64,000 nucleotides of DNA, from positions 1 to 64,000 of the forward strand of contig JANVFP010000033.1 in assembly GCA_027919835.1 (NCBI GenBank), read 5' to 3'. A program made the translations under genes and the position numbers. Positions 11,761-31,316 of the stretch are shown piece by piece (position 1 is the stretch's first letter; each line of letters starts with the position of its first letter). Below the pieces are notes generated by a model. It was given only the letters and a program-made list of their open reading frames with translations, was not told where the DNA came from and did not search any database. This DNA is from Lentinula raphanica. Its lineage: Eukaryota; Basidiomycota; Agaricomycetes; Agaricales; Omphalotaceae.

Positions 11761-12042
11761 CATCAGGAAAAATATTCTCATCTCTAGAGTCCCCAGAGAT
11801 ACCCCCCAATTCCTAGGTAGTCTCAGAGAGCCTAGAGTATCTGAGTTCTTTGAGGCTTCTAAAAATTCTCTGGGTGCTTTCTGGTGCTTTCTGATGCTTT
11901 CTGGTGCTTTCTGGTGCTTTCAGATGCTTTCAGGATCTCTAGGATGTTTTTTGATCTTTCAAAGTTCACAAAAATCTCTGAGCAGCCTAGGAATTGGGGG
12001 GTATCTCTGGGGACTCTAGAGCTGAGAATATTTTTCCTGATG
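11761..12042. mobile_element. MITE M3 (282 bp)
   Basis: Ends CATCAGGAAAAAT / ATTTTTCCTGATG, with inverted blocks CCCCAGAGATACCCCCC / GGGGGGTATCTCTGGGG. The apparent 2-bp duplication is TG. The interior holds about five copies of an 11-bp GCTTTCTGGTG-like repeat, which makes it longer than its relatives M1 and M2. Confidence 0.85.
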
Positions 12043-12283
12043 TGTCCTTGGGAATAGTGGCCGTTTTTTTTTTCTATGTGTAGGAGAGTTGGATGTGGGA
12101 AAAAAATTACTTCACTTCTAGCCTGACAGGCCCACAAATTGATAAGCCACAGTTCACAAGCTCTTGTTTCCGACATGTGATTCAGACTTTGTGAGGAACA
12201 ATGATGGTATATGAGAGCTGCTTCAACACAGCTGCTTCATCACTGAAGGTTCATCTGTGACCCTTCATATGCATTCTCAAATG
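12043..12283. other. Unannotated gap before the large transposon
   Basis: 241 bp with a T-run and no credible ORF or repeat. It could hold remains of the 5' side of the NACHT gene, but I found no matching motif. Confidence 0.3.
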
Positions 12284-12475
12284 CACTTCAGGCAGCCACC
12301 TAAACTTACCAAGTTAGGATTAAAAATTGATCATATAATATACCCAAGGTGGTGGTAATCCCATGGGCAGTCCCGGTCAGGGATTCCCCAGGGGGATTCC
12401 CAGGTCAGGACCCCTGACACTTAGGGCCTGGAAATCCCAGACAGGGAATCCCAAACAGGGGGATTCCCATGATTC
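12284..12475 (+). repeat. Left terminal inverted repeat of the large transposon
   Basis: Matches the reverse complement of 28475-28666 almost base for base over the outer 120 bp, then with small differences. It contains several GGGATTCCC-type 9-mers, the same motif as in the subterminal arrays. Confidence 0.85.
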
Positions 12476-13060
12476 CCTAGACCCCTGATTTTTGCATTGA
12501 ATATTGAATTTACTATCCTCTATACTGATGTAAAAATCACCAATCATGTAGGTATTCCAGTATTGAGAATACATGTCCAGATGTCCAATGGTAGTTGCTA
12601 TCCCCTGAACTAGCATAATACTAGCAACCTAGAAGTAGGGAATTGTGCTACAATATATGCTATGCTATAGGACATGGTGAACATATAAAATAGGACAAAT
12701 TGTTCAATTGGTCAATGCATGCTATTTCAGTACATTTCATAATATTTAATCCATCACCAATGCATTGTACTTTAGACCATACCATACTTGCAAGCTGTTA
12801 TTGTCTGAGGTTCACCGAGATTGTAATGGATGCAGACTGATTATTTTGTTTCAATGCAGAATTTATCACATCCCTCAAAGTATCACTGCCTTGATTTGCT
12901 ATTGTTTCAATATGTACTGCATATAACTGCAGAATGCAAAATTGTGGGAATTTGTTTGACTCTTTTTGATTCAAAGTGTCACTCTTGATTTGGTATTGTT
13001 ACAACATATATTATACATAACTGCATATTTCTGCTGTCTTCTAGATATGCATACTCCTCC
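12476..13060. other. AT-rich spacer between left terminal repeat and array
   Basis: No gene or repeat recognised. It is not similar to the equivalent right-hand spacer (27958-28474). Confidence 0.4.
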
Positions 13061-13310
13061 TGGGAATCCCCTCTACTGGGAATCCCTTTAACTGGGAATC
13101 CCCTCTAACTGGGAATCCCTTAGCTGGGAATCCCTTTAGCTGGGAATCCCTCTACTGGGAATCCCTCTACTGGGAATCCCTCTACTGGGAATCCCTCTAC
13201 TGGGAATCCCTCTACTGGGAATCCCTCTACTGGGAATCCCTCTACTGGGAATCCCTCTACTGGGAATCCCTTTAACTGGGAATCCCTCACCTGGGAATTC
13301 CCTTCACTTG
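13061..13310 (+). repeat. Left subterminal minisatellite (TGGGAATCCCTCTAC)n
   Basis: About 16 tandem units of 14-16 bp whose constant core is the near-palindrome GGGAATCCC. The same core is repeated in reverse orientation at the other end of the transposon, which suggests transposase-binding sites. The array stops about 80 bp from the end of the transposase frame. Confidence 0.85.
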
Positions 13311-13393
13311 AAAGTCTCAGCGAGAGAGCTCTTATATATCAAAACCAAATCTTTGTATATGATTTCCATTGAGGCTACAATTATCATTCATAT

Positions 13394-16300
13394 TCAGTAT
13401 ATATCTAGTGTATCTTCTGACTCCGCATACCACCCATCCGTTAAGTTGAGCACATCAATTGACTCAAGCAAGCCTACATCCAAATCATCATCATCAACCA
13501 ATGATTCACCACTATCGTCGTCCATCCATTCTTCGCAGACATCGACCACTCTATCAGAATCCAGATCTATTGATGCTGCTGCTAACTCCGCTTCTGTTGG
13601 CCCCCAAGGTGGTAAAGCTTGATTTATAGGCAATACAGCAAATGCTCGTTGCCAAAAAACACATAATCGGCATAATTCAGAGCGTCTCTGGTCTAACTGA
13701 TAAAAAACATCCTCTTCTATATTATACAAGAGTCAATGATCAGGACCTAATGAACAAGGTAGGAATCACTCACCAGACTCATGAAGTTCACTGATAGCCC
13801 TTTGGAGGACCGACCACTCTTCCGAAAACCACTCTCGCAAAGTCAAACATTCATGTTGTAAACGTCTTCGCTCCTCATCGCAACGATCTCGCAACAAGAT
13901 ACCTCGAATACCGTGTCTGACCTGATCACAACTTTGCCATAAAGGGGCATGAGAGCCACTGGTGTCGTCGTCAAGACCAATATCATCCCAAATAGAATCA
14001 TCAACGTCCAGAGAGAACAATTCTTTGGTAGGGATCGGTTGAGGTGCTACCGCATTCGCAGGTGCCCTTTTGAGACGGATCATTTCAGACATGCTCTTGC
14101 AGATATTGTTATACCTTCGCGCCAGTGCTTCAATGCCTGGATCACGGCGTTTCACCGCATCTTCAGTATGATTATGAAGTTTGCGTTCTGAAGCTGATGG
14201 ATAGTCAATAACGAGATAGGTGGATGGCCATGGACTGCTCACTGTTCATTTGGCGACGGAATGATCGTTCAAGGCGATCTCGTTCAAACTTTCGAGCCGT
14301 GAGTTTGGTTCTGAGTCGAAGTTTGCACGAACGTGCATTCATTCGCGCGGCAATGAAGGGACTCGAGGCTAGGTGCCGATACTGAGTGCGTCCTTCTACC
14401 CCTAACGCCATCTCCTTGTTCTTCAAAGTAGCAGAGGTCTTCCGTAAATTCTCCTTCACCTCAGTTAACTGTTGTTCGGCCTCTGCTACCTCGTATGGTT
14501 CCGCCGACAAGTCTGTAGTGATATCTTCTAATCGCCGCACCCGGTCACTGAGTGTATCACGGACCGTGCGCAGACGAAGGGCCTCTTCAACAGCAGTTTT
14601 CCCTGCTTTCCGTGACTGTTCTGGCAAGAGTCAATTTTAACGTTAACCTCGGCTCTTGGATTAACTCACTAGGTAATGGCTGTGTCTGCTTTTTCACTTG
14701 TTCAGCCCACTGCTCCCGCAGAAAGTCAACACTTCGCATTGAATACCGGATATCCTCCTCAGCGTCAACACGCTTTGCCTCAGTGTGGTTCCACTTCCTC
14801 ACAATCCAGCTAGCTAGCCCCCGCAAGCTCGCCACATCAGCATGTTGGATCTGTAAGTCCAGCGTATAGATACGGAGATGATGCTACATGAGAACGAGCA
14901 TCAGAAAGGGGGTCAGGCAGGGTATATGATACAGAAACATGACTTACTCCACATACTCGAAGGTAAGCGATTAATTTGCTGATTGAGTGCCAGAAGCGCT
15001 CGCAGCCTTCCCCGTCTGAAAGGCCAAAGCCTTTACATTTACGAGGGTGATAGATGCATTGACAAGGCCAACCGTGGCCGAATGCATGAAATACAGAGAT
15101 AGCAAAGGTTATTCGTGGGAGGTAGTGTTCCAAGAAGCCCCATTTGATACAGCTGCGTTCTAGCTGACATGCTATATCGTATAGAAGGCCGACCGTATAT
15201 GAAGAAGGAAGGTGCTTGAAGAGCATGTCGATCAAAGAGAAGGCGTAATGCTGTCTCTCTCCTGCTGTCGTTATGTTTACCAACCAGAGCACCCTGTCAT
15301 GTCGACATAAAAGACCCATCAGGCCAGTTGAGTCAAAAAATTTGGTGCTCGCTTTTGTTCGTGCTCCGTCGGCGGCGATGAAGCTATTCTCGCATCCATC
15401 AAGAACCGACTTAGGAACCTTTAAAGATCCCTCGTAACCATCGCTATCTAGCTCCGTTCGGACACCAGAGTCAGAAGAGTTTGTTTTGGGGCGAACGGAA
15501 TCTACAAAGTGCTGCCAGCTGTCCACGTCTCCTTCTGGAATAAATACTGTTCGTGGATGCACTCGGTGAGGATCTCGATACGTCCGAGTGTTGTTCTTCT
15601 GAGTGAAACAAGCATCCAAGCACACGATACACGATAATCTAGACAAAGAAAAGCGACTTGAGCACAGGTATTTCGTTAGATCACCGCGAAACGTACTCCT
15701 GGGTCAAAGGCGAGCTTCCCCCAAAACACAACGGACATCGACGGCGAAGATATTCACTAGGTCGCTCCCGCATGGGTTCTTCTTCCTCTACCCGACTACG
15801 CTTAGATCTGTCTTGCTCTGCTTCCTCTCTATCAACGGTCGGCCCTCGATCTTCAATGCCACTGCTCCGACCTTCTTCAACCACGCGATCGATGTAGGAA
15901 GTGGAGACCTGTAGCAGTGTGTTATACCACTGTAGTGCATTAGAGAATCGTCGCCGAAGTGGATCTTGTCCTTGTAGATGAAACCCTTGCGCCTTCAGGA
16001 AATCCTCAAGCGTATCACATATTGCTGTGTTATTTGGTGAGATACGAAGAAAGAGGCGGTTCACAAAGTCCAGAACCCGCAGATCCACGGCAAGGGAAGG
16101 ATACAGCGGAGCGCATCCGAAGAGAGCACGTTCTATGAGTTGCTTTGCAGCAGGGCGACACGAACAGATTTGAAGAGAAATTCTTTCTAACTCTGTGAAA
16201 ATCATAGAATGTTAGCGTTATTCATATACAGTAAGTTCCACTTACTGTGGAACCGTACCACTACTATATCTAGTTTGCGCGACTTGTTCAGACAGACACA

Positions 16301-16762
16301 TTCCTCTGTGGACCATGTGGTATCTTCGGCCAGGTTATTGGATACACGTAGTAAATGAAGATAAGGTCGGACGAGAGTAGGTATGATCTCATCGTTCCAA
16401 TGCCGAAACTGGGCGAATCGTTTCTTCTTGTGATGTGACTCACTGCCTCCTCCCACTGAATCGACTGATGTGATGTGTTCAGATACGTCGGTATGAACAA
16501 CAGGGGCGCGGTCTACGTTGTCAGACGTTTGCGGTCGGTAACGAAAACCTACTTGACCTTCAGGTATTGGAAGGGGGAAGCGCTGAGAATATGCATGTGA
16601 GGGCATAATGAGTAGGTCCTGGGTAGCCTTCTTGCGCTTCTTCATCGGGGAGGTAGAGCGAGACCTATTTTTTGATACAAGTGCATAGGAGCTTCGAGTT
16701 GGAGTAGTGGACGCAGGAACATCCTGTGAGAGGAAGTCCTTAGGGATACGAACTCGAGACAT
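13394..16762 (-). CDS. KDZ transposase, intact seven-exon gene (about 1010 aa)
   Basis: Proposed exons are 16762-16246, 16192-15697, 15638-14948, 14883-14670, 14620-14243, 14187-13774 and 13716-13394. They sum to 3033 nt, exactly 1011 codons, and every intron (49-64 bp) has GT..AG ends. The N-terminus MSRVRIPKDF leads to a cysteine cluster (CVCLN..., then ICSCRPAAKQL) of the type reported with KDZ transposases. A CPLCFGG / CLDACFTQK cysteine module spans residues ~325-350. The RNase H-like core has candidate catalytic acids in FFDSTGLMGLLCRHD (about 440), LLYDIACQ (about 492) and GEGCERFWH (about 551). The C-terminal half is coiled coil, with an acidic tail DDDDLDVG. The role would be DNA cleavage and strand transfer in the nucleus. 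No disabling mutation was seen. An upstream in-frame ATG at 16987 exists, but the family N-terminus favours 16762. Confidence 0.9.
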
Positions 16763-17641
16763 CAGGGTGTCGTAGTGGAAGCGGAAAGGAAGTGCACTGT
16801 CAAACACCACACCCTCAAGAACTCTTGCGAAGACGTTTATTGTTCCAAAAAGGAGCAGCAAAAATATTAGTTTAACGTCATTTCGGACGATGATCAGCCA
16901 CTGTGGTTTCATCTCTTTATTGTTGGGATACGCACTTGGATCCGCACCATTTTTAACGTCTGCGTCAAAGCTGTTTCTACAAGTCACTTTTGCATAGACT
17001 TCAACTTCATGAACAATGATGAAATATGTGTGTTTTTATAATGTTTCGCCTCAAGAATACATCACTACCACAAAATTATACATAGACAGAGCGATAGGGA
17101 ACTGTACACTACCAAGTGCTCATTATAACCAGCAATTTGCTATATCTTCGGCGAGCAAGTGTCATTCGCATGATGCTAATGGAGGTGCACTGTGATTCCG
17201 ATAAAATGAGGCTACCAGAGAGTATTAGCGACTGACATAACAGCTTACGCATGTACGTTGCATTGATGATTGTTGGCCGAGATACTAACCCTACCGCGAC
17301 ATTAAAGTACCCGGAATTGATAAGATGTTCACAGAAGTATCTCTAGAACATCGCAAATCATCCCAGGTAGTTATTCGTAGCTAGAGTTTCGTCGTCGTGG
17401 CGTGCCCCGCTTTCGAAAGCCCATAGCGCAAGTGACATGAAAAGGAGGTTGAGCGTAAAGGTAGGAAATGTCGATACGGAGTTTGAGATACAACAAGTGA
17501 CCTGTGTATTCAATAAGCGTTTGGACAGTTCAGATTAAACGTGTGCGGAAGACTGAGATATTGGATACGATATCTAATGCGCGCGTCAATGCTGTGACAT
17601 TTCCGCTGATTAACAACAGAGACCGTAGTACCAGGATGGTC

Positions 17642-18292
17642 CAGCTGAGGCTGTAAGATTAATGCATAACGACTGGACAACTGTCCCCACTCGTTATGCG
17701 TAATGAATGGACAGCTATCCAGTAGATAAATGAATTATCCATATCTCCTGAAATAGCCATTTTTGGAAAAAACTGACCCCCCCTATAGGGGGTTTTCCAT
17801 TTTGGTCTATCAATATAACCTCAAATTTTAAACCCTAACCCAACCCCTAACCCAACCCAACCCCTAACCCCTAACCTAACCTAACCCCTAACCCCCTAAC
17901 CTAACCCAACCCCTAACCCCCTAACCTAACCCAACCCCTAACCCCCTAACCTAACCCAACCCCTAACCCCCTAACCCAAACCAAACCCTAACTAAACCTA
18001 AACCCTAACCAGCCCTAACCCTAACACAGTCCCTACCAATGAAAATATACCAAACCCTAACCCCTAACCCAACCCCTAACCCAACCCTAACCCCTAACCC
18101 TTGCTAACCCAGGTTGGGCACTGAATCAGACCCCTCCCTTATGTTAGGGTTAGCATAGCTAACCCTAACGGTAGGGGCCTGATTCAGTGCTAAATCCCAG
18201 TTGTACAGTGGTGGGATAACTGTCCATTCATTACGCATAACGAGTGGGGACAGTTGTCCAGTCGTTATGCATTAAACCTACAGCTACAGGTG
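17642..18292 (+). mobile_element. Telomere-repeat MITE-like element T1 (651 bp)
   Basis: Ends CAGCTGAGGCTGTAA and CACCTGTAGCTG (inverted), flanked by the perfect 7-bp duplication GATGGTC. The interior has a palindromic CCCCTATAGGGG, about 250 bp of variable CCCTAACCC/CCTAACCC-type repeats, and a long hairpin around GTTAGCATAGCTAAC. Related copies lie at 44084-44668 and 62011-62596. T1 is the most diverged of the three. Confidence 0.85.
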
Positions 18293-18497
18293 GATGGTCT
18301 GTGCCCAGGGAAGCACGTCCAGAAAGCATGATAAAACCGACAAAGTTCAATCCTTGTCCATAAAGTGCTGAAGCGCTGAAGTGTCCTGAAGTGTCGTCGA
18401 TCAAGGCTGGTACCAGGAAATAACTACAGAGACATAGCAGGGGCAATGGAAGAACAGAATAGAAAGAAGAAATGTAGTTTCCCGCGGTTCCGCTGCT

Positions 18498-18610
18498 AGG
18501 TGACTTCTCGGGTCGGATAAGAAAGTTCGTTTTAGGAACCGCCCGCGAGCTGAGGTAATCCCGATACGGTTCCCAAAACGAAATTCCTTATCCGACCGCT
18601 CGAGTTACCT
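18498..18610. repeat. 44-bp inverted repeat with 25-bp spacer near the Spt5-like gene start
   Basis: Arms 18498-18541 and 18567-18610 are complementary with few mismatches; both include GGTCGGATAAG..CGTTTT on one strand or the other. It lies about 230 bp upstream of the presumed ATG at 18836 and could form a hairpin or a dimeric factor site. It may alternatively be a tiny foldback insertion. Confidence 0.6.
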
Positions 18611-18835
18611 GAACGTTGAAACCGTGGGAAACGGCGTTTTTTTCAAACATCGCCTACGTTCGTACTCAACGCTGGTCGTGTTGACCAGGTAAGACATTCT
18701 TTTTTCGTCATAGGCTGCATTCGAAGAGTGTTATTCGTACTTGTCATGTATCTTGCTCATCGTAACACTTGTACAATCAATTGAGAATTGAGATTAGTGA
18801 GCTCACAATCCATCCAGATTCTTATAACGATTATA

Positions 18836-21800
18836 ATGGACGAAGTGCCCTCCTTGGACGTTGACAGCAACGGTAACAGTACAGTAAGTTACCGTATGTT
18901 GCATCCACGTCAAAATCACCCATACCAGCGTCAATCATTTGGAGGAGGAGCGTAGTCCAATTCTTTCCAAACACACCACGGCCTTGCAACAGCTACAAGG
19001 TATGTAACGCGCCGCGTTTTCAAGTCTTGTGTGCTTATGATGTATAGACTATTGGTCCGAAGACGAGCAGGACTTTGACGGAGAGTTCAAACCTTTCCTT
19101 ACTCCTTCTACCTGTAGTACCCACCTTCCCCTCGACATCTCGATGATCTCTCCGACATTCCCCTCGTCCATATCCTCTTCGCTATCTTCTACTCTCACCG
19201 ACAACACGCGTACATTCTCAGAGGCGAAAAGAACAGCCGACTCTTCATTAACAATCGGTATGGTGGACCTAGTCTTTGATGGAATGCCCGGACTTAATTT
19301 TCTATGCCTAGATTACGCTTCTGATGAAAATATGGACTTGGCAGAAAGCGCGAATCCGTCACCAGCTCCTCTTCCTCTAATCGATCATATTCACCTCTTC
19401 GCCAGTGAGGCCACGGACTCCCCATCCGATCACGCTTCGACAATCTCCCAAACCTCTCATCAGTCTCAAGAGACCCCATCGCAAAGTTCGCACAGTAATC
19501 GCGCTATTGCACCCAAGCCGCGTATCCCGAGCCACCGATCATTTCAGCATTTTCTTGATTTGGAAGCCAAAGACGACGATGAGGATGCATCAATCGACGA
19601 GGACGATACGCTAGAGGAAGATGGCTTCATTGACGACACGATGGTAACCCTTCATGCCGACCTCGTACCTTTCGATGAAGTGGTTACGGGCCCAACTAGA
19701 AACGCCGCTTTTCTTGAGCACCTCGAGCAGGTATATGCTCATCCGTCTGTAGCCGACGATATCATGAGCGAAAATTCTATGGACGACCGCAGTGGCGACG
19801 CTCTCCTTACTCTCAACAATTGCGCGACAGATTACGTTGAGAAATTTTCTCCTGAAATCAATCATCTACCTGGCGACTGGGCTCTTTTTAGAGTGGAATG
19901 TAAAGTAAGAGCAAATTCTATAACCCATCGTTCACACTCTAATGCCTTTTCTCAGGCAGGATCGGAGTACGAGATTTTGTTCGACATTATGCACGCCCCA
20001 CATATAGAATCCGAGGTCCGCAGTGCCTTTTTCAACCCCAGCGTAGGAAACCACCTGTATATCGAAGGATCCATCTCACGGCGTCACAAGTCTCCACTGT
20101 TGGATTTTCTCCATGCTCATTCCGACGTCCAATCGTCGACTTTGAGATATCTCCCCTCCGATGACCACAGGTCTTCTCTCTGGGTTCGACCTCAGAATGA
20201 TCAAGTGTTTGCGCGAGGTACTTGGGTGAAGATTCTCTCCCCAGATACTTATCGTGGTGATGTTGGTCTCGTACGAGGGCTTCGAGCAAACCCCGGACGT
20301 CTATCTGTTCTTGTCACTCTTGTACCACGTACTTTCCGAGAGGACGACTTGGAAACAATGACTCGGCCGAACCTGGAACTCATGCTCGATGAAGACCTCG
20401 AAACTGCTGGTGCAGTCAAATATAGTTCTCGAAGTGGTGATTACTATACGTACGGGAGTGAGGTATATCAGTCAGGATTGATCATGCTGCTCTTTGCACC
20501 GGCTTCTCTTGCTGTTGCACACACAATCTCAGGCGAGAACCATAGATTGTTCATCGAGAGCAAGCATGCCTTTGTACTTGAACGTCGACATAGCATACCA
20601 GTTCCCGAACACTGGTCGTTCCATGAGGGTGACGAAGTTCGAGTTATCTCTGAAGCTCCGCATCACTCTGGTCCTTTGCGATATGGGCTGGTGAGATCGG
20701 TTCTTCGTAGATGTTGCGAAGTGGAATTTGTTGTTGATGGGGGCTTCAAAGAACTCATCGCAATCCCGATGAACCTCTTAGTCAAAGAAGTCACTCCTGG
20801 GGACTATGTCAAGGTAGTCGCGGGCATTCACGATGAGCTCTGTGGTTTAGTCGGAGAGAAAAACGGTCGTGTTGTTGGAATAATACCTGATAACTCGTAT
20901 ACTGTGGTAAGAGTTTGCCCCTCAACTCATATATATTAACTAACTTCGCATTCAGAGTGTATGGGTGGATGCCAACTCGGTGGTGAAATCAAACCAGATC
21001 ATACCGCTCAGCCACCGCAAATCTCTCTGGATGGATCTTAAAGTCGTCGTCACAAATGCTGACTTTAACAAACAGCTGAAGGGCATAATCAAGAGAGTAT
21101 GGGCTGATGGTCACGGATTGATTCGTATCCTGGTGTACGTTCCTACTAGCGATTGCTCATTTGAACTAGACTACACCCAAGTGGTAGAAGAAGGGTCAGC
21201 TACCTTTGACGTTTACAGTTTTATCGCGACGCACGCTCACTTTTCACGGTAGATCCTACAAGTCTCTGGACAGGCTTGCCCTGGATTCGGGGATATCGTT
21301 GGTTGATGACTATGGGATCGATAGGACATTACATCTCATGAAGACCGGCCGTCAGCCTTGGATCGGTGTTCGAGTACTTATCATCCATGGGCATTACCAT
21401 GGATACACTGGTACCGTTCGCGATGTCAACTTGTATCGGATCAACCACAACAACCTCTATGCCAGCGGTTTGAGGCTCACTCTGGAGATCGATGTTATGA
21501 CTACCACTGCAGCCAATCCTCGAATTCAACTGGATTATGATCTGGTTCGAGAACTGCGGTATGTGACTGTCAATGATAACCAAATTTGTGAGAATGCTTA
21601 TACTCTGTCCTCAGCACCCATGCGCCGCTACACAATGTGATTAGGCCGTCCTGGAATCAATCTATATTCATGCCAAATTCGCGTTACAAGCCTACCAAAT
21701 TTATACCTGTACAAATCCCAACAACCGTTTTGCCTTCCCGACCATCCACTCCTCTCATCGATCCGGATTCGCTGAAGGCTATGTATGAATTCGTTGGATC

Positions 21801-22404
21801 ATGGTATCCAGCGGTAGACGTCCACGAAATTCCATCTCCACATCACAATCCACCATCGCCTGATCAGCAGTCTCATTTCTTGGCTCATAAGAACTTATTG
21901 GGCATCGCTATACGGGTTGATGTTGACGGAGGGCCATACGACACCCTGAAGACAAAATCAGCCGAACGCTATGTGATCCCAACTCCATACTCCAACGGCT
22001 CGTTTAGCACTGTCGTATTTCGAGTAGATCGACCTAAGATCAAAGTTGGTGATGTATTCCTCGATGGGTCGGTTTTATTCAAGCATCGAAACCGCCCTAA
22101 GCCAAGTACAGAGAAGCGGCTGATGGTGGTGATCGGAGGGTTTGAAGAACACATTGGAAAATTCGTCCGCCGTTTGTACTATTTTTACAAGGGAAGCATG
22201 GAGGATGATAGCAAATGGTTTCGGTTGGTAGTTGTTTACTTCTCAGATGGGGAGGAGATCATAACTGATGAGGAGATCGAACTTCACCCTGGTAACGTAG
22301 AATATGTTCGGGAAACATCGGATATGCGTAGAAAGTCTACAGAACAACTGGCTGAACGCCGTCAATTTCTGGCGCATTCAGCTCCTGAATTACGCCGAAG
22401 TTAG
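18836..22404 (+). CDS. Spt5-like NGN/KOW-repeat protein carried by the transposon (about 1081 aa)
   Basis: Exons from the third onward are well supported: 19048-19904, 19956-20906, 20956-21194, 21253-21558 and 21615-22404. All phases agree and introns are 48-58 bp. The first two exons (18836-18883, 18945-18999) are tentative. The N-terminal 250 residues are acidic and low complexity (DLEAKDDDEDASIDEDD). An NGN-like domain follows (DWALFRVECK|AGSEYEILFDIM, after removing an intron that reads through in frame). Several KOW-like motifs come next: GTWVKILSPDTYRGDVGLV, GDYVKVVAGIHDELCGLVG and GVRVLIIHGHYHGYTGTV. A tail with WYPAVDVHE and a further beta-rich domain ends the protein. The arrangement resembles transcription elongation factor Spt5. 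It is much expanded in agaricomycetes as I remember it, and its link to KDZ elements is inferred here from position. No premature stop remains after splicing. Confidence 0.8.
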
Positions 22405-22742
22405 ATATGCTTATCCTTGTATGTGTGAATGCATTATCGACTTTGAACATATCATATGGAAACTCTGTTTCATGCATACTCTGAATATTGGAAAGATGGT
22501 GCGTCCGCAACGACGTTAAACTATGAAATGAGCCAAGTTAGACAAATGAAGTGGCCTAGCTAGGTGGAACAATAGACGAATGGACGGCGAGTGGATGGCA
22601 AACACATCACTTGGCCTTTTTGAGTGAAACAATAGGAAGATGGCTGGTAAGCAAACACATCGCTTGAATCACACGTAGTTTTTGTTGAACTTTTTGGTGG
22701 ACAGTGTAATTTGATTCCTGACTTCTCCATCAAAATCCACCA

Positions 22743-25700
22743 ATGGCGAACACTCGAGCAGCTCAACGGGCACGCACCCGATCACAAACACAAGGGGTCA
22801 CAACATTCACCTCCCTCTCTCAGGAGGAGGCACGCAACAAGAAAAAGACGGTAGTATCCTGATCTTCTAACACCTCGCGCAATACTGATCATCGCATACT
22901 AGACGCATCGAGACCGGAAGCAGAAACCGGCTCAAGGACCATCCAAATCAACAAAGGTCAAAGGACGCAAAGACTCTGGTTCGGAGGAAGATGCCACCGA
23001 TGACGAATTCAAAGATGAAGACAACGAAGAAGAAGAAGAAGAAGAGGAGGAGGAGGAGGAGGAGGAGGAGGAGGAGAAAAGGGCTCGATCAAAGAGACGA
23101 AAGGCTACAGAGGTGATATCTATATCTCACTTGTTTTCCATGAGTAGGGCTAACTTTGTGCGACAGGACAGCGCATCTCGACCACCCAGGCAGGTGAAGA
23201 AGGGTAATTCAAAGGTCCAACAGAAGACTGCAGCGGTAAGTCAAATGTTTCGTTCCGTTATCCACACTAATAAGCCCTGCAGACTCGCACATCTCGAAAA
23301 CCTACAGTGGTGGTCCAGGATCGCAACACGCAACATCTCCCTCCGCCACCTCTGAAACGTGATGCTGCGGCTCCTACAATGGTTTCGCAACCAGTGAAGA
23401 CATCCGCAGTGAAACCTGGGCCTCTTCCTCCGCCTCCGTTGAAGCGCACGGCACGACCAAGCTCGGTGGTTCCACATGTTCCCGCTGTTCATCCTGCGGC
23501 TCGTGCAAGCAGTAGCTCCCACATTCAGAGGGACGACAATGCCTTGCAACAGGGCTGGAAAATCATGAAGGAATACCTGCTAGGATCATCCACGCTCTCC
23601 ACACAGCCCCTTGTTGAGGCGGCATTGGCAAACCTATTTGGTTCTGATGTGGCCATGCAGTCACCGTGGCGGGTGAAAATTGCACAGATAACAGGTCTAG
23701 AGCCGGACGACGATGAACAACGACAGGCACTTCTGCACGAAATAGATACAGCAATCAGTCAGTTCTCTCATGATTCTACACCTTCGAGGATCGAGAAGGG
23801 CAGCCGTTCAGGTGCTGCTGCAGACTCCCGCATGTCTCCAGATCTTAGACAATCCCCAGAACCCTTCATAGCCTCATCCCCGGAAATAAGCGGTCACAAG
23901 TTACGCAGCCGTACAGGTGCTTCTGCAGACTCCCGCATGTCTCCAATTCTTCGAAGCTCCCCAGACCCCTCCATAGCCTCATCTCCCGAACGGACTGGTT
24001 ACGATGATCCAACTGATTCGATGGCCTGTTCTGACGAGGATCACTTGAGTCCGAAGGACCGACAGTTACTTGTGACTGCTAGGGCAGATTTAGAGTGGGA
24101 CATCGACTGCTGTTCACGCGCTGAGCAATACAACCAACCGACCGCTAGGAACATATGGTCCGAACTCAATGACCAGTTCTATGAGACAGCGGAGAACCGT
24201 CTTTACTCCTCAAACGGTTTTGGGCCACGCGAACATCTCTCGAGAGAATCAACAGACATTGCACATGTTCGTGCTTACGTCTTGTCTCATGATCCCCACC
24301 ACTATTCTACCTTTCGAGAGACCGCGCGCACAGAATGGCAGGATCTTGAAAAATGGTCCCTCGAAGCTGAGGACGACTTGCGAAGGAGGTTTGGCCCGGA
24401 AGGGGAGGTTATTGCCGAGGACGACCAGGAAGAGCCAGAAGACACCGCCAGCGGGTTTGATGCGTTAACGTGGCCCGATGATGAAGACAATGCTGCGCCG
24501 TCTTCCCCTCAACGCCTAGTGGACTACAGTTCAAGCCCGCCTCCCCAAGAACATGGTATGATTGAGGGTACCAATGAAGGTACCCATACTCGTCGAGGTA
24601 AGCTCATCGAATCTCCTTGAGAGTAGGTCATTGATCATATGATCTACGTAGCTGCGGAAGACAAGGAGTCTGGCAAGAAACCTGGCAAGAGCAGACGTCG
24701 TCATAAAACCCGAATTGAGACTGAGGATGAGGGACGTGTTCAGAAGGCCTACGAAACTGAGAATGAAGATCACCCGAGGGAAGAAGAAGAAGGACTTGAC
24801 AATGACGAGGCAGAAGATGCCGAAGACGACAATCCCAAAAAACCTGGCCGTCTTTCCCGTCGTGTGAAGGAGGAACTTGATGCCGCCCAAGCAGAGTATG
24901 AGGCAAAAGTGGCATCAATCGCTGACGGAGCAAACAAGAGTGTCCATGCCTGTTGGCGTTATCTCAATGAAGTGATCTTGGTCCCTCGAGAAACCAACGC
25001 TTGGAATGCTTTCCAGGCCTGGTATGGAGTGCATGGGGAATACTGTCGTCCGGAATCAAGTATGTTCTCTTCCATCACACGTCCTGATCATGTACTCATT
25101 TGAGTTCATCTCTGTCCCTTTCAACAGTGGAGCCGGGGGAGTGGACTGCCTTCGTGGCAGAAAAGTATCAGGACATCCTCGATTCGAAGCTCCAGCCTGA
25201 AGATCAACATAACGAAGATCTCAAGTGTGAGATATTTGCAGAACACATCAAGTGGTTTGAAGAACACCACGACGCTTATGTTGAGAAGAAGAAGGTGGAG
25301 GGGAAATTTAATGGGACGGTGAAGACTATGCTCAAGCCGCTCTTTGCCTTGGTAAGCCATCAGTCCATATGTCAAGTTCGAGTTCCTCATACTCTTGGTT
25401 AGGGCAAGCAGCTTTACCGCAACACTGGGGCACATCTCTTAGGTCATCTGGTTATCACCGATCATGATGCACAACGGAAAAGCAGAAGTGTGACCTGGGG
25501 CTGCACGGATATTGTCAAACAAGTGATTGAGGAACATGCAGTGGACTTGAGAACACAGCTCACCGATATTGATGCACTACTACGGTATGTTCCTAGATCG
25601 ATATTAAAACTTCAGCTCAATTCTTACCGTTATAAAGGAGGAAGGAAATGAAAATGCATGGGATATCGAAAGAGTTGGCGAAACTATCAACTGCGTGTAT

Positions 25701-27294
25701 CAAAACCCAGTCCGACTCGGGTCCAAGAGATCGTGATCGTCGAGTTATTTCAGCAAGCTTTGTCTATGATGTTGGTATGTGAATTCAATCTTTGAGTGAA
25801 TTGTTCAAAAGACTGAAAATGAACCAGAACGTTGTATCGGAATCAAGACGATGAAGCTTACGCCAGGCCAGTTTGTCAAGCACGCATACAAATATCATGT
25901 TCGCGTAATCAACTGGCCTGTGGGACTACCGTTTTTCAACATGAAAGAGGGAGAAGGAGATCTCCATTCTATGAGCGCGATAGATATCAAGAAGGTCACG
26001 GGCCCACGGATTGCTCAGATATCACGCGAAGTGAACGGAGAGGAAGATGAGGAGGGGGAAAAATGTTTCGAGGTTGTAAAATGGAACGACGGTGGGTTAA
26101 AACAGGATACAACATATTATAAATACTGACGAAGTTTTTCTAGACGAAATCGAGCTTAGTCTAAAGGACCAAGCAAAAATCCCTATTGTTTCAGACACCG
26201 AGGGTAAAGTCATTGTGACGGTGTCTTATTCTTCACTCTATGAACAAGAACTGCAAGAACTGCAAGAACGGAGTGGCAACTATAATGATGATGACAACGA
26301 CAACGACAGATTCTACGAGGACGATGAAGTATCCGAAGAAAATCCACCAACTGCTCCTCGAGCAAAGCCAGTCCCGAAACTGCGTACGATGAAGCAGACA
26401 AAATCCACATCACAGACTGAGGAACGTTTAATCCGTCAGGCTTCTGAAGAAGCACCGAGAACTACCTTTCCTCATACCCGTCTGCTCCACCACACTTCCC
26501 AGTCGGCAGCTCTATCTAGCGTTCCTCTAGATTCTGTTCCTCGTCCTCACACATTGGCCAATCAGATGCGTTCTGACAGTAATAGTCAGCGAGGCGCTCC
26601 ATCCCATGTCCATTCAAATTCTGTTTTACGTTCTGGCTCCTCATCTCATTCAACTCAGCTTCATCGCAGTATCCAGCCCGGGGCTCAGGCTCAGTCTCAT
26701 AGTCATCTTCCTATGGAATCTGGTTCACGTTATCGACCTTTGCTGGGATCATTTGCTAGCACGCAGTCTCATGCTCCGCATCAATCTCCATCAGTTGCTG
26801 GCTCTTCAGTTCTGACGAAGCCTCGGTCTCAGTTCAATGATGGAGCACAACAGCACCCTCGTCGATTGCAAGGTCCACAGGCTATTCCCCAATCTGATCA
26901 TCATGTAACTGAACAGCATCGTCGTCATCCTCATCCTCCAGCTCCACCTGAGTATGACTTGGTTGAACGGCATGCTTGGCACCCTCAGCCTCGACCTCAG
27001 CCTCAGCCTCAGCCTCAGCCTCAGCCTCGACCTCAGCCTCGACCTCAGCCTCAGCCTCGACCTCGACCTCAGCCTCAGCCTCAGCCTCAGCCTCGACCTC
27101 AGCCTCGACCTCAGCCTCAGCCTCAGCTTCGACCCCATCCTCACCGTTCGCAGTTGGCAACCATTCCAGAAGATCACCACCAGCATACTTCAGGCAACAA
27201 TTTGAAGCGCAAGGGGTATGAGAATAGAGACAGAGCTGAGGAAGATAATGGAGGTAGGGTCCAATTCAAAAAGCGTAACACTAGCCAACAGTAA
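22743..27294 (+). CDS. Large charged coiled-coil/proline-rich protein of unknown function (1355 aa), third gene of the transposon
   Basis: Ten exons can be drawn with all phases closing: 22743-22850, 22903-23112, 23167-23235, 23283-24597, 24652-25059, 25128-25351, 25403-25584, 25638-25774, 25828-26091 and 26144-27294. They total 4068 nt. The N-terminus is basic (MANTRAAQRARTRSQ). It is followed by a long glutamate run, two PPPPLKR motifs, two near-identical 'ASADSRMSP.LR.SP.P.IASSPE' repeats, and an acidic linker. A conserved-looking helical core follows (about residues 650-950, with HACWRYLNEVIL, FEEHHDAYVEKKK and RSVTWGCTDIVKQVIEE). The C-terminus is a PQ/PR repeat tail and a basic KRKGYENRDRAEE end. 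I do not recognise a catalytic domain. It lies 339 bp after the Spt5-like gene on the same strand. Likely nuclear; possibly a chromatin or DNA-binding accessory of transposition. Confidence 0.75.
26985..27127 (+). repeat. In-frame CCTCAG/CCTCGA hexamer array coding (PQ/PR)n
   Basis: About 22 hexamers encode alternating proline-glutamine and proline-arginine near the end of the third transposon gene. Because the unit is 6 bp, copy-number change keeps the frame. Overlapping ORFs on either strand here are artefacts of the repeat. Confidence 0.85.
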
Positions 27295-27410
27295 TGTAGG
27301 ACTGTACTTTTACTTGTTTGTATATGGTACACAATATGGTACACGTTGTATATCAATTATGATCCTTTCAGGAGGGTTGGTTTTGTGTGTGAATTTTTCC
27401 AAGGAGACCC

Positions 27411-27957
27411 ACAATTTCCAGCGAAGGGAGTCCAATAGCATTGAGAGACAGTTCCCAGTAGAGGGGATTCCCAGTAGAGCCACAATTTCCAGCGAAGGGA
27501 GTCCAATAGCATTGAGAGACAGTTCCCAGTAGAGGGGATTCCCAGTAGAGGGATTCCCAGTTAAAGGGATTCCCAGTTAAAGGGATTCCCAGTTAAAGGG
27601 ATTCCCAGTAGAGGGATTCCCAGTTAAAGGGATTCCCAGTAGAGGGGATTCCCAGTAGAGGGATTCCCAGTTAAAGGGATTCCCAGTTAAAGGGATTCCC
27701 AGTTAAAGGGATTCCCAGTAGAGGGATTCCCAGTTAAAGGGATTCCCAGTAGAGGGATTCCCAGTAGAGGGATTACCAGTTAAAGGGATTCCCAGTTAAA
27801 GGGATTCCCAGTAGAGGGATTCCCAGTAGAGGGGATTCCCAGTAGAGGGATTCCCAGTAGAGGGGATTCCCAGTAGAGGGGATTCCCAGGTGAGGGATTC
27901 CCAGTCATGGGATTCCCAGGTGAGGGATTCCCAGTCAAAGGGATTCCCAGTAAAGGG
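27411..27957 (-). repeat. Right subterminal minisatellite (GGGATTCCCAGTAGA)n
   Basis: It starts with two copies of a ~70-bp unit containing AATTTCCAGCGAAGGGAGTCC (27411-27547, quoted in part). About 30 units of 14-16 bp follow, built on GGGATTCCC with GTAGA or GTTAA linkers. It is the mirror image of 13061-13310 and about twice as long. It begins about 120 bp after the stop of the third gene. Confidence 0.85.
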
Positions 27958-28474
27958 TGAGGAGATAAGGTATTTCTCATGTATATTATCTATAAGAGTT
28001 TATATGTTTCCATTTGTTACTATGCAGCAGTTCAAATAAATTATTGACCAGACAAATTGCAACCAATAATGAAATATTGGAAGGGCCACCTAGTAAAGGT
28101 AGTTAGACTCTTGCTTGACTTATAATGGAGTATGTAATACAGAGACAAGCACAGTTGAAGGTCAAAGCAGCTTGCTAAATCTCAGAAGGTTAAGCCAGTC
28201 AATGCTTGAAAGTAGCAAATGCCAGGGCCTCAACAGTGATGAATATACTGACTAGAATTACACACAAATAAGTTAGTGCTTTGCCTATGTACACAGCATG
28301 TTTGTTTCTACTGTTGATTGAGCGAGAAGAACTGGTGCTTGATCAAACAAGGACCTCAATAGTGATGCATATAGCTATTCAATTGATATACACATCAATC
28401 AGGACTTAGCTTACCTGCATAAGAAAAGAACTGGTGCTTGGTTCCGTTAGGAAATGGTCAAGGAAATACTGTGA
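27958..28474. other. Spacer between right array and right terminal repeat
   Basis: 517 bp, AT-rich. 'GAACTGGTGCTTG' occurs twice (28330, 28430) and there is no supported ORF. Confidence 0.4.
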
Positions 28475-28666
28475 GGCCTTGTTGGGAATCCCTATGTGGG
28501 AATCCCAGTGGGGATTCCCAGGTCCTAAGTGTCTGGGGTCCTAGTCTGGGATTCCCCAGGGGGATTCCCTGACCGGGACTGCCCATGGGATTACCACCAC
28601 CTTGGGTATATTATATGATCAATTTTTTAATCCTAACTTGGTAAGTTTAGGTGGCTGCCTGAAGTG
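28475..28666 (-). repeat. Right terminal inverted repeat of the large transposon
   Basis: Inverted copy of 12284-12475, ending GCCTGAAGTG at 28666. It includes GGTAAGTTTAG, a good splice-donor match facing the NACHT gene, and an intron acceptor (TTTGCAG) lies at 28732. The transposon end could therefore supply the donor for the gene's first remaining intron. That is speculative. Confidence 0.85.
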
Positions 28667-28732
28667 AGGCAAAGGTATTTTTTGCAATCACTGTCTTTCT
28701 ATATTTACTTAATCTTACATTTTACTTTGCAG

Positions 28733-31316
28733 CTGGATCAGGAAAGACAATTGTGGTGTGAGTTTAGTGACCTGTATGATTGTGATACTGTGTGAATTTA
28801 TTATCTGTTCTAGTGCAAGCATTATTGAGAACTTGAAGATATCAGGCAATTCAGGTTTGGTGGTTTACCATTACTTTGATCTCCGCAACAATGCTGGAGA
28901 AAAAAGAAGTTATCGAGGATTGCTGCTGAATCTCCTTGTGCAATTGGGAATTCAAAGCAACAGAATCCATCCTGCATTGAAGAGTTTATATGAACTCTTC
29001 AAAAATAGGCACTTGGTTTTCAAGCCTACCAATAATAAACTGGCTGACATTTTCATGACTGTTATTAGGGATTTAGTTCAGAGAAAACATCAACTTTATA
29101 TCATAATTGATGCTCTAGATGAATGCAATGACTCAGATTCTCCTTGGGTCTTGGATCTTCTTTTCAAAGTAACTAAATTTCCTATGGTTGGGATTGTAAT
29201 TTCAAGCCGCAATCATCCGCCTCACAATTTCAAATGTGTAGCAATTTCTTTGGACCATAACAACAGGGTCAATACAGATATCAGTCATGTCATAGAAGAT
29301 CAAAGTCAAAAAATGTTTAAAATTCCAGCCTTGCAGCTTAAGGTGAAGCAGTTGTTATTGCAAAAAGTAGATGAAGGGTATGTAAATTCAGCTACTGGCT
29401 AGGGCTATTGTATATAAGCTTACATTTTTCCTAGATTCCGTTACATTGAATGTCAACTTCATGTATTTAAGGAATATGCTGAATCAAAGCATGCAATAGG
29501 AGTACCAACCCAATTACCCTCAGATCTGAAGGAAACTTATACTCAAGCCATTGCAGAATACAAGAAAAATATTAACCACTCTGAAGAATTCCATCACCTT
29601 TTGTTATGGCTTCTATATTCTTTTGAACCTTTGCATAAGAATCAAGTTGCAGCTATTTTGTGCATGAAACTAGTAGACTCATCCACAGTTCCTTCAAGTG
29701 TTGCTCTAATCAGTGACTTGGGGAGCATTGTGAATACAACATTGATTGCTGTGGATGCTCAAGACATTGTCCAATTTTCACATGCATCAGTCAAGGAATT
29801 TTTACTTGAAATTCGAGATAATATTCAAGTAAAAGAACTGTTTAATGTCAATGCACAATTGGCTCACAATATTATGGCCCATATGTGTCTCATATACCTG
29901 TTACAATACACCCACTATGAGGATACAGATTCTGAAACAAAATTTGTAGGGAAAAGTCTCAGGGTATTCAAACATTATGCAACTCAATACTGGGCAGAGC
30001 ATAGCAAGTACAATGAAAATTCAGACACTCCATTTGAAGATACATTAACACTCACTCAAAAGTTCCTTGAAGATAGTCCTAAACAATTTATGAACTGGAA
30101 AAGAAACTACAATTACATGGGTGACAAGATTGCAACTGGAAGCCAGATATTTCGAGATTGTCATCCTGTACATGTTGTTGCATTCTTTGGGTTGAGAAAT
30201 AGTACTCAAAGGTTGCTTGCCAAAATAACATCAACTCAGAATAATACTTTAGGTAAGTCAGATGCAATCTATTATATATACAATATCTAACAGCACTTAT
30301 TAGCAATCAGTATTATAGGGGAAATGCTTGGAACTGCACTTCAAACAGCAGCCTTTGGGGGCCAGAAGGAAATTGTTCAGTTACTGTTGAGATATCATGC
30401 AGATGTTAACATTCAGGGTGGATATCATGGAACAGCACTTCAAGCTGCAATATCTGGGAGATCCAAAAGTGTTACTCACTTACTTCTAGAATACAATGCA
30501 GATGTCAATGCTGAAGGAGGATACTATGGAACTGCAATTCAAGCAGCAGCATCTGGTGGGGATCAAGATATTGTTCAATTACTTTTGAAGCATAATGCAA
30601 ACCCTAATGTTCAAGGAGGATACTATGGCACAGCACTCCAAGCAGCAGCATTCAGGGGACATAGCAAAATCATTGAGATGCTACTAAAAATAGGTGCCAC
30701 AGTTAACACCTTGGGAGGGATATATGGTAGTGCTCTTCAAGCTGCAGTAGCAGAAAATTACCAAAATATTATCCAAATTCTTCTAAAGCATAATGCAAAC
30801 CCAAACACAAGGGGGGGATTTTATGGCACAGCATTGCAGGCAGCAGCATTCTGGGGTTACAAGGAGACCATCCAACTTCTTCTCAAATACAGTGCAGATA
30901 TTAATATGCAGGGTGGAGAATATGAAACTGCTCTTCAAGCCGCTGTGGCTGGGAGCCACAAGGACATCATCCAGATCCTTCTAGACAAAGGAGCAGACAT
31001 TTCTATTCAAGGAGGATATTATGGGACAGCACTGCATGCAGCAGCCTTTTTAGGATACAAGGAAATCCTTCAGTCATTTCTCAGACATAATGTAGATGTC
31101 AATACACAGGGGGGAGAATATGGAACAGCACTTCAAGCAGCTGCAATCAAAGGTCACAAAGATATCATTGAGTTTCTTATAAAACATGGTGCAAAAATTA
31201 ATGCTCAGGGAGGACAGCATGGAACAGCATTGCAGATTGCAGAAAACAATGATCAACAGGATCTAATTGAATTCCTTCTGGAACATGGTGCAGATGTTGA
31301 TGCTTATGTTTACTAG
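28733..31316 (+). CDS. NACHT-ankyrin (NLR-like) gene, 5' end missing
   Basis: Exons are 28733-28757, 28814-29377, 29435-30252 and 30319-31316; frames agree across three introns. The first exon encodes the P-loop A-GSGKTIVV. NACHT features follow: YHYFDLRNN, RGLLLNLLVQLG, LYIIIDALDECND (Walker B-like) and GIVISSRNHPP (sensor). A winged-helix-like segment ends in FRYIECQLHVFK and LLLWLLYSFEPL. The C-terminal part is ten ankyrin repeats of about 33 aa with the signature GTALQ.AA..G....I..LL, highly alike, suggesting recent repeat amplification. Fungal NLR-like proteins of this type are linked to heterokaryon incompatibility and innate sensing. Everything before the P-loop, including any effector domain, is absent; the large transposon ends 66 bp upstream. 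Probably a truncated gene. Confidence 0.85.

Follow-up and report, generated by a model that had tools for sequence, protein, structure and literature searches.

The KDZ class was reportedly described by Iyer et al. in 2014. Large KDZ elements, as well as accessory genes in the fungal ones, are already known (PMC12730594, PMC12810828, PMC12477816). Fungal Kyakuja/Zisupton KDZ transposons carry a TET/JBP accessory gene, and Kyakuja elements show 7-bp duplications and CA..TG ends, with two Laccaria families devoid of terminal inverted repeats (TIRs) (PMC12730594). The Cryptococcus element KDZ1 has a CxC1 cluster, TIRs of 241 bp, and 8-bp duplications (PMC12810828). Another relevant system relies on RfaH, a NusG paralogue which is recruited by a small non-template-strand hairpin at ops, in the leader region (PMC5995543). 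Here, we describe a 16.4-kb KDZ element found at positions 12284-28666 of a 64-kb window (the whole stretch analyzed, from contig JANVFP010000033.1, hereafter C33) of the 49-Mb genome of Lentinula raphanica. Its regular gene set, shared with related copies, comprises a transposase, what appears to be a diverged paralogue of Spt5, and a third conserved protein. A 22-nucleotide (nt) motif, probably a hairpin, precedes the transposase gene and the third gene, and is absent upstream of the Spt5-like gene.

The locus resembles the fungal KDZ elements by its CxC-type KDZ transposase, its large size, and the presence of accessory genes, as in the TET families. It differs by the nature of these genes, a Spt5 paralogue and a protein without a known family; no TET/JBP match was obtained in the 10 open reading frames scanned out of the 33 listed. 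The CxC1 cluster and long TIRs are shared with KDZ1, and the CA..TG ends and mostly 7-bp duplications with Kyakuja. Nevertheless, TIRs are present in the window element and in the seven others compared, a feature by which the family departs from Kyakuja as described. Both 7- and 8-bp duplications occur among related copies here, unlike in the KDZ elements described. No Spt5-type accessory gene of any transposon, and no work on Lentinula raphanica transposable elements, was found in a literature search that left most subscription papers and Repbase outside its reach.

The left TIR (12284..12469, plus strand) starts with CACTTCAGGCAG, and the right TIR (28483..28666, minus strand) carries the complement of CACTTCAGGCAG, ending at 28666. 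Aligned to each other, they show 89.8% identity across 187 columns, a single indel being the sole difference between the outermost 100 bp of both ends. Further inside, a left subterminal array (13060..13303, plus strand) is composed of tandem 15-bp units with the palindrome GGGAWTCCC, and a right tandem array (27523..27957, plus strand) is inverted relative to it. The palindrome is present 51 times in the element, with 19 copies in its leftmost 2 kb and 32 in its rightmost 2 kb, and is absent from both the element middle and the remainder of the window. Because the other elements of the family carry their own abundant subterminal words, mostly of similar form, these palindromes are likely candidates for transposase-binding sites.

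The transposase gene (13394..16762, minus strand) encodes 1012 amino acids (aa) in its splice model. Its KDZ domain (PF18758, E = 3.9e-55, 187.3 bits for a cut-off of 26.6) and CxC1 cysteine cluster (PF18802, 28.6 bits for a cut-off of 26.9) identify the element, on profile evidence, as a member of the KDZ superfamily. The catalytic stretches AADG, LLYDI, and GEGCERFW, of which we take the acidic D-D-E residues to be the catalytic ones, are kept in 7/7 compared elements, those of C3 and C60 being counted as one. Cut-and-paste movement would be expected from the family. The original prediction, which had described inverted ends of about 190 bp, mirror-image subterminal arrays, and three closed frames of 1011, about 1082, and 1356 codons, agrees well with the alignment, with the two arrays, and with proteins of 1012, 1076/1081, and 1360 aa. 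The term 'intact', which it also used, suits the genes and the ends, and does not suit the insertion site, where no duplication is present.

The Spt5-like gene (18836..22404, plus strand) encodes a protein of 1081 aa in public record P0001, or 1076 aa in the splice model, with an acidic N terminus containing FLD-EA and FID motifs, a NGN domain, and several KOW domains. A profile built from ten relatives, some of them apparently modelled as fusions with the third gene, matches solved Spt5 (8qsz_Y) with an E-value of 1.7e-18 over NGN and the KOWs, and this same-order match includes the acidic N-terminal FLD-EA...FI motif. By homology, the protein is thus best described as a diverged Spt5 paralogue with NGN and KOW in the Spt5 order. 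It shares with eukaryotic Spt5 the acidic N terminus with its FLD-EA and FI motifs, NGN, and KOWs, and is unlike it in being transposon-encoded, strongly diverged, equipped with an extra C-terminal region, and separate from the presumed host Spt5. The latter is presumably the strongest NGN match of the genome (C42:206727, 85.8 bits), which lies apart from the element. The elements on C6 and C25, the only two examined among those seemingly without a Spt5-like gene, encode a diverged version (profile E = 9e-9 and 1.1e-12), and the C25 protein, used as genome query, retrieved further diverged Spt5-like genes, many at motif-bearing loci. A second multi-copy Spt5-like group, with 25 matches on C8, C30, C39, C61, C14, C1, and at other loci, contains many open frames of ~420-580 aa. 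The hairpin motif is near 0/25 of these, and the seven members included in the KDZ-distance count have no listed KDZ match within 20 kb; this group is perhaps another mobile element family.

The third gene (22743..27294, plus strand) encodes 1360 aa in the splice model, with a conserved core of ~400 aa. No convincing family was found in Pfam, NCBIfam, or the PDB, the weak PDB matches (E of 0.009 and above) being taken as chance. Relatives occur in Lyophyllum shimeji as well as in L. raphanica and L. guzmanii, and another assembly of L. raphanica probably encodes a Spt5-like and a third protein on one contig (45,457 bases, same locus prefix).

Genome searches with the end sequence, the transposase family, and the Spt5-like and third proteins yielded related elements, ranging from 13.6 to 31.9 kb, on C27, C14, C26, C2, C3, C60, and C10. 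Perfect target duplications border 11 of 13 end pairs (8 of 7 bp and 3 of 8 bp), among which the C10 site repeats the C3 site; the C2 pair shows an ATTGCAA duplication with a 3-nt offset. On C3 and C60, the whole 13.6-kb unit is present at two sites with differing 7-bp duplications, with 99.1% identity over 13,521 aligned bases and neither gap nor new stop in the matched codons. The ratio of nonsynonymous to synonymous substitution rates (dN/dS), obtained from an alignment-based count covering these two copies and not the window copy, is 0.027 for the transposase (983 codons, Fisher p = 9e-7), 0.133 for the Spt5-like gene (813 codons, p = 5e-4), and 0.138 for the third gene (532 codons, which is part of the gene; p = 0.005). 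Purifying selection therefore acts on all three genes between C3 and C60. Ratios based on independent tblastn anchoring were discarded as artefacts (C3 and C10 appeared to differ in spite of 99.97% identity), and those over long distances, with saturated dS, were not used.

The association of the three genes extends beyond this pair. Their protein distances correlate across six elements (r = 0.56, 0.83, and 0.52, values reached in 23, 13, and 6 of 720 permutations, respectively), on the basis of a tblastn-type anchoring in which one misplaced stretch was seen (C26, CxC region). The 12 best Spt5-like loci, including that of the window and the near-duplicates on C3, C10, and C64 (the latter two being either insertions or assembly duplicates of C3), have a third-gene match within 20 kb in 11 cases and a KDZ match within 14 kb in 10. 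More broadly, among 114 KDZ, 37 Spt5-like, and 36 third-gene rows, in which neighbouring exon matches were merged by hand, a KDZ match among those listed lies within 10 kb of 18/37 Spt5-like and 17/36 third loci, while chance gives at most 4.6%. Chance adjacency is ruled out by this proximity, by the correlated distances, and by the transposed unit of C3 and C60. Transposase, Spt5 paralogue, and third conserved protein consequently form the regular gene set of one mobile unit, as originally predicted: at other genomic sites, too, three-gene elements of this kind are bordered by related ends, and the co-occurrence that had been suggested as a check is the rule at the best loci.

Four pairs of ends spanning just 1.4 to 4.2 kb look like non-autonomous derivatives. 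The C26 element (C26:640-27896) holds a nested family element (11802-19196), and the two are flanked by separate 7-bp duplications. A Spt5-like gene also lies beside the transposase in a second, CxC2-type KDZ element, for example on C34, where both gene blocks can be aligned with those of C11. Long terminal repeats were searched for in CxC2-type elements and none were found, so that this type is at most a putative mobile unit.

The 22-nt motif, N-GTC-CGNAAN-GAC-N-TTAAACTA, is present in the window element at 16868..16889 (minus strand), in sense for the transposase and 105 nt from the ATG of its splice model, and at 22502..22523 (plus strand), in sense for the third gene and 219 nt from the ATG of its model. 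In the copies read, the distance to the likely ATG is about 70-220 nt. Searching the genome with a 21-nt pattern yielded 77 matches (61 exact, 7 with one mismatch, and 9 with two mismatches), compared to 4 matches with up to two mismatches for a reversed control pattern. Most exact copies (53/61) have an element-type Spt5-like locus at a distance of 10 kb or less. In sense orientation, 25 of the 61 are within 6 kb upstream of a KDZ match, 14 are upstream of a third gene, and 26 are downstream of a Spt5-like match, 5 falling in none of the three classes. Viewed from the genes, and with up to two mismatches, the motif is found within 6 kb upstream in sense at 22/114 KDZ loci and 19/36 third loci. 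It lies within 6 kb downstream in sense at 36/50 element-type Spt5-like loci (exact and variant copies), and within 6 kb upstream at 0/50, the Spt5-like groups (30, 20, and 25 rows, diverged genes included) having been defined after the matches were seen. A pattern-free k-mer search in 10 diverged elements, of which two were fragmentary, returned 12- and 13-mers shared by at least 6 that all derive from the motif, with one additional, simple word at 11 letters. The independent evidence for the motif consists of this search and of the mismatch count with its reversed control, the information content of pattern-selected rows not being independent.

The motif appears to be non-coding. A coding peptide, VRNDVKL, was considered because two variable places of the motif are third codon positions, and was rejected: stops follow in most translated copies, one copy is interrupted by an internal stop, and no conservation is visible by eye between the motif and the ATG. 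A variant, GTGCGCAANCACNTTAAACTA, in which both 3:10 stem positions are changed, stands before third-type genes (C14:589174, C14:1106327, C14:1106379, C24:694565, C24:694625, and C11:1376775). Three exact motifs (C13:17128, C54:30617, and C59:60577) have no listed transposase or third match nearby and no Spt5-like match within 6 kb; that of C13 has a Spt5-like match at 9.7 kb, and none is listed on C54 and C59.

Comparison of the copies suggests that the motif forms a hairpin with a 4-bp stem, the folding energies of single copies being weak. Over 55 distinct sites, which do not represent all motif copies, pair 3:10 is C-G in 50 and G-C in 5 and thus intact throughout; at the outer pair, Watson-Crick pairing is seen in 50, a wobble in 3, and a break in 2; and one of the two inner pairs is broken once. 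In the 19 distinct variants, 96.1% of stem cells are paired. The covariation score of the stem is 0.367 vs. 0.073, with 0/500 shuffles as high, in a test which is small (four pairs) and is based on related sequences, copies within an element family not being independent; the change at 3:10 may be a single event. The base preceding the stem was also predicted from position 13, in writing, ahead of fetching 40 unseen copies. This advance prediction was mostly borne out: C at position 13 came with G in 7/7 copies, G with C in 22/23 (one T), and A with T in 6/8.

Since it precedes the transposase and third genes and spares the Spt5-like gene, the hairpin may mean that the element runs its own transcription control. 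It is thus compatible with the original suggestion that the Spt5-like gene controls transcription of its own element, while falling short of proof. That the element-encoded Spt5 paralogue promotes transcription of hairpin-marked transcripts, as RfaH does at ops, is the reading that we favour, and which we consider quite possible while still short of probable. In such a scheme, the Spt5-like gene, devoid of the hairpin, would be the first to be expressed, driven by an ordinary promoter; its product would join RNA polymerase II on the element transcripts and keep them elongating or free of silencing; and the 22-nt leader hairpin, recognizable either in the nascent RNA or in the non-template DNA, would be its address. 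We infer both that the motif is transcribed and that the Spt5-like protein recognizes it. The paralogue would then be kept by selection for its service to the element, which we assume to be the party served. The wider proposal of a self-contained elongation control common to two KDZ types, in which a dedicated Spt5 paralogue recognizes the leader hairpin of the transposase and third-gene RNAs and thereby allows their transcription by polymerase II, as an independent counterpart of RfaH/ops, is put forward tentatively, as a possibility.

Several observations weigh against this scheme. Regarding the stem, two pairs have changes on both sides, a value reached by 181/500 shuffles; A at position 13 gave C in 2/8 of the new copies, and T gave G instead of the predicted A in 2/2 (G-T wobble). 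Single-copy folding is weak, both as RNA (-2.4 to -3.0 kcal/mol, z of -0.3 to -1.6) and as DNA (-1.7 to -1.9, z of -0.4 to -0.9). Regarding the protein, the window copy taken alone scores under the curated Pfam cut-offs for NGN and KOW, and its predicted structure is of low confidence (pLDDT 34), the NGN-like strand/helix order at residues 313-386 of this model being only suggestive. Regarding the association, 8/61 exact motifs have no Spt5-like match within 10 kb, 14/50 element-type Spt5-like loci have no downstream motif, the motif is not upstream at 92/114 KDZ and 17/36 third loci, and the C3, C60, and C10 elements carry it at the third gene only. Finally, if located outside the transcript, the motif could be promoter DNA.

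Other explanations account for part of these data. The covariation including G-T pairs, the sense orientation, and the distance of about 70-220 nt to the ATGs would fit a leader RNA if the motif were a 5' untranslated region (UTR) element through which the mRNAs of the transposase and third genes are controlled in their stability, export, or translation. Its reader would then be a host RNA-binding protein or the third protein, which accompanies the element just as regularly as the Spt5-like protein does, and the latter would have a separate job. Nevertheless, the linkage of motif and Spt5-like gene (53/61) then becomes indirect, and the third protein has no known domain in the Pfam, NCBIfam, and PDB comparisons; we regard this explanation as somewhat unlikely. 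The inverted repeat with its fixed spacer might instead be a dimer site for a promoter or core-promoter factor binding double-stranded DNA, and a position about 70-220 bp before the likely ATG is suitable for this role. Such a site would not account for the sense orientation, the invariant asymmetric 3' part TTAAACTA, or the wobble pairs at the outer stem position, and we hold it to be unlikely.

Two further explanations dispense with a sequence address or with any function. In plants, SPT5L acts in RNA-directed DNA methylation. Spt5 factors are also reported to act in non-coding transcription in Paramecium (PMC8934623), and the Spt5-like protein might similarly act in a general manner, by competing with host Spt5/Spt4 or by blocking silencing genome-wide. 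As this would explain neither the motif nor its avoidance of the Spt5-like gene (0/50), it is considered improbable. DNA transposons can also carry captured genes, and the Spt5-like gene could be a passenger, captured from the host by chance and useless to the element. This is highly improbable, given the purifying selection between the transposed copies C3 and C60, the presence of the gene beside two KDZ types (CxC1 in the window, CxC2 on C34), and the long co-inheritance reflected in the correlated protein distances.

At the insertion site of the window copy, no target-site duplication is found (...TCAAATG on the left and AGGCAAA... on the right). On the right flank, a P-loop gene, NACHT-like by eye (28667..29402, plus strand), constitutes the right half of the target site and is cut exactly at the element boundary. 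A paralogue on C50 presents the uninterrupted junction, ...CTCTGGATTTA-AGGCAAAGGTA..., of which 38 bp match the right flank at 97%. One target half is missing, because the left flank matches the upstream part of neither of two P-loop paralogues; recombination between copies, aberrant transposition, or mis-assembly could each account for this. A short multi-copy repeat (11761-12043), located 240 bp left of the element, has nearly identical genome copies (up to 100%) and is a young repeat family. With no target duplication and only one half of the target present, there is no support for a recent, clean insertion of the window copy. Of the recent activity or selection that had been put forward to explain the long frames, selection rather than mere youth is supported by the comparison of C3 and C60, which does not extend to the window copy itself; the suggested search for an empty site led only to the paralogous site on C50. 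Within the element, a probable short element (17640..18294, strand unassigned), with 81-bp inverted ends (93%) enclosing telomere-like CCCTAAC repeats, is nested between the transposase and Spt5-like genes.

Returning to the possible hairpin-addressed Spt5 paralogue, its likeness to RfaH/ops lies in a specialized NusG/Spt5 paralogue existing besides a presumed housekeeping Spt5, and in a short strand-specific hairpin signal that precedes the candidate target genes but is missing ahead of the gene for the factor. The system differs in belonging to a eukaryote and a transposon, and in a motif unrelated to ops by eye. The accessory genes of fungal KDZ elements described in the papers cited above act on DNA methylation (TET/JBP). 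That a transposon maintains a Spt5 paralogue under purifying selection suggests that element and host contend over transcription elongation, and the covarying hairpin offers a concrete handle on whether a eukaryotic Spt5 paralogue is addressable to chosen genes, like RfaH.

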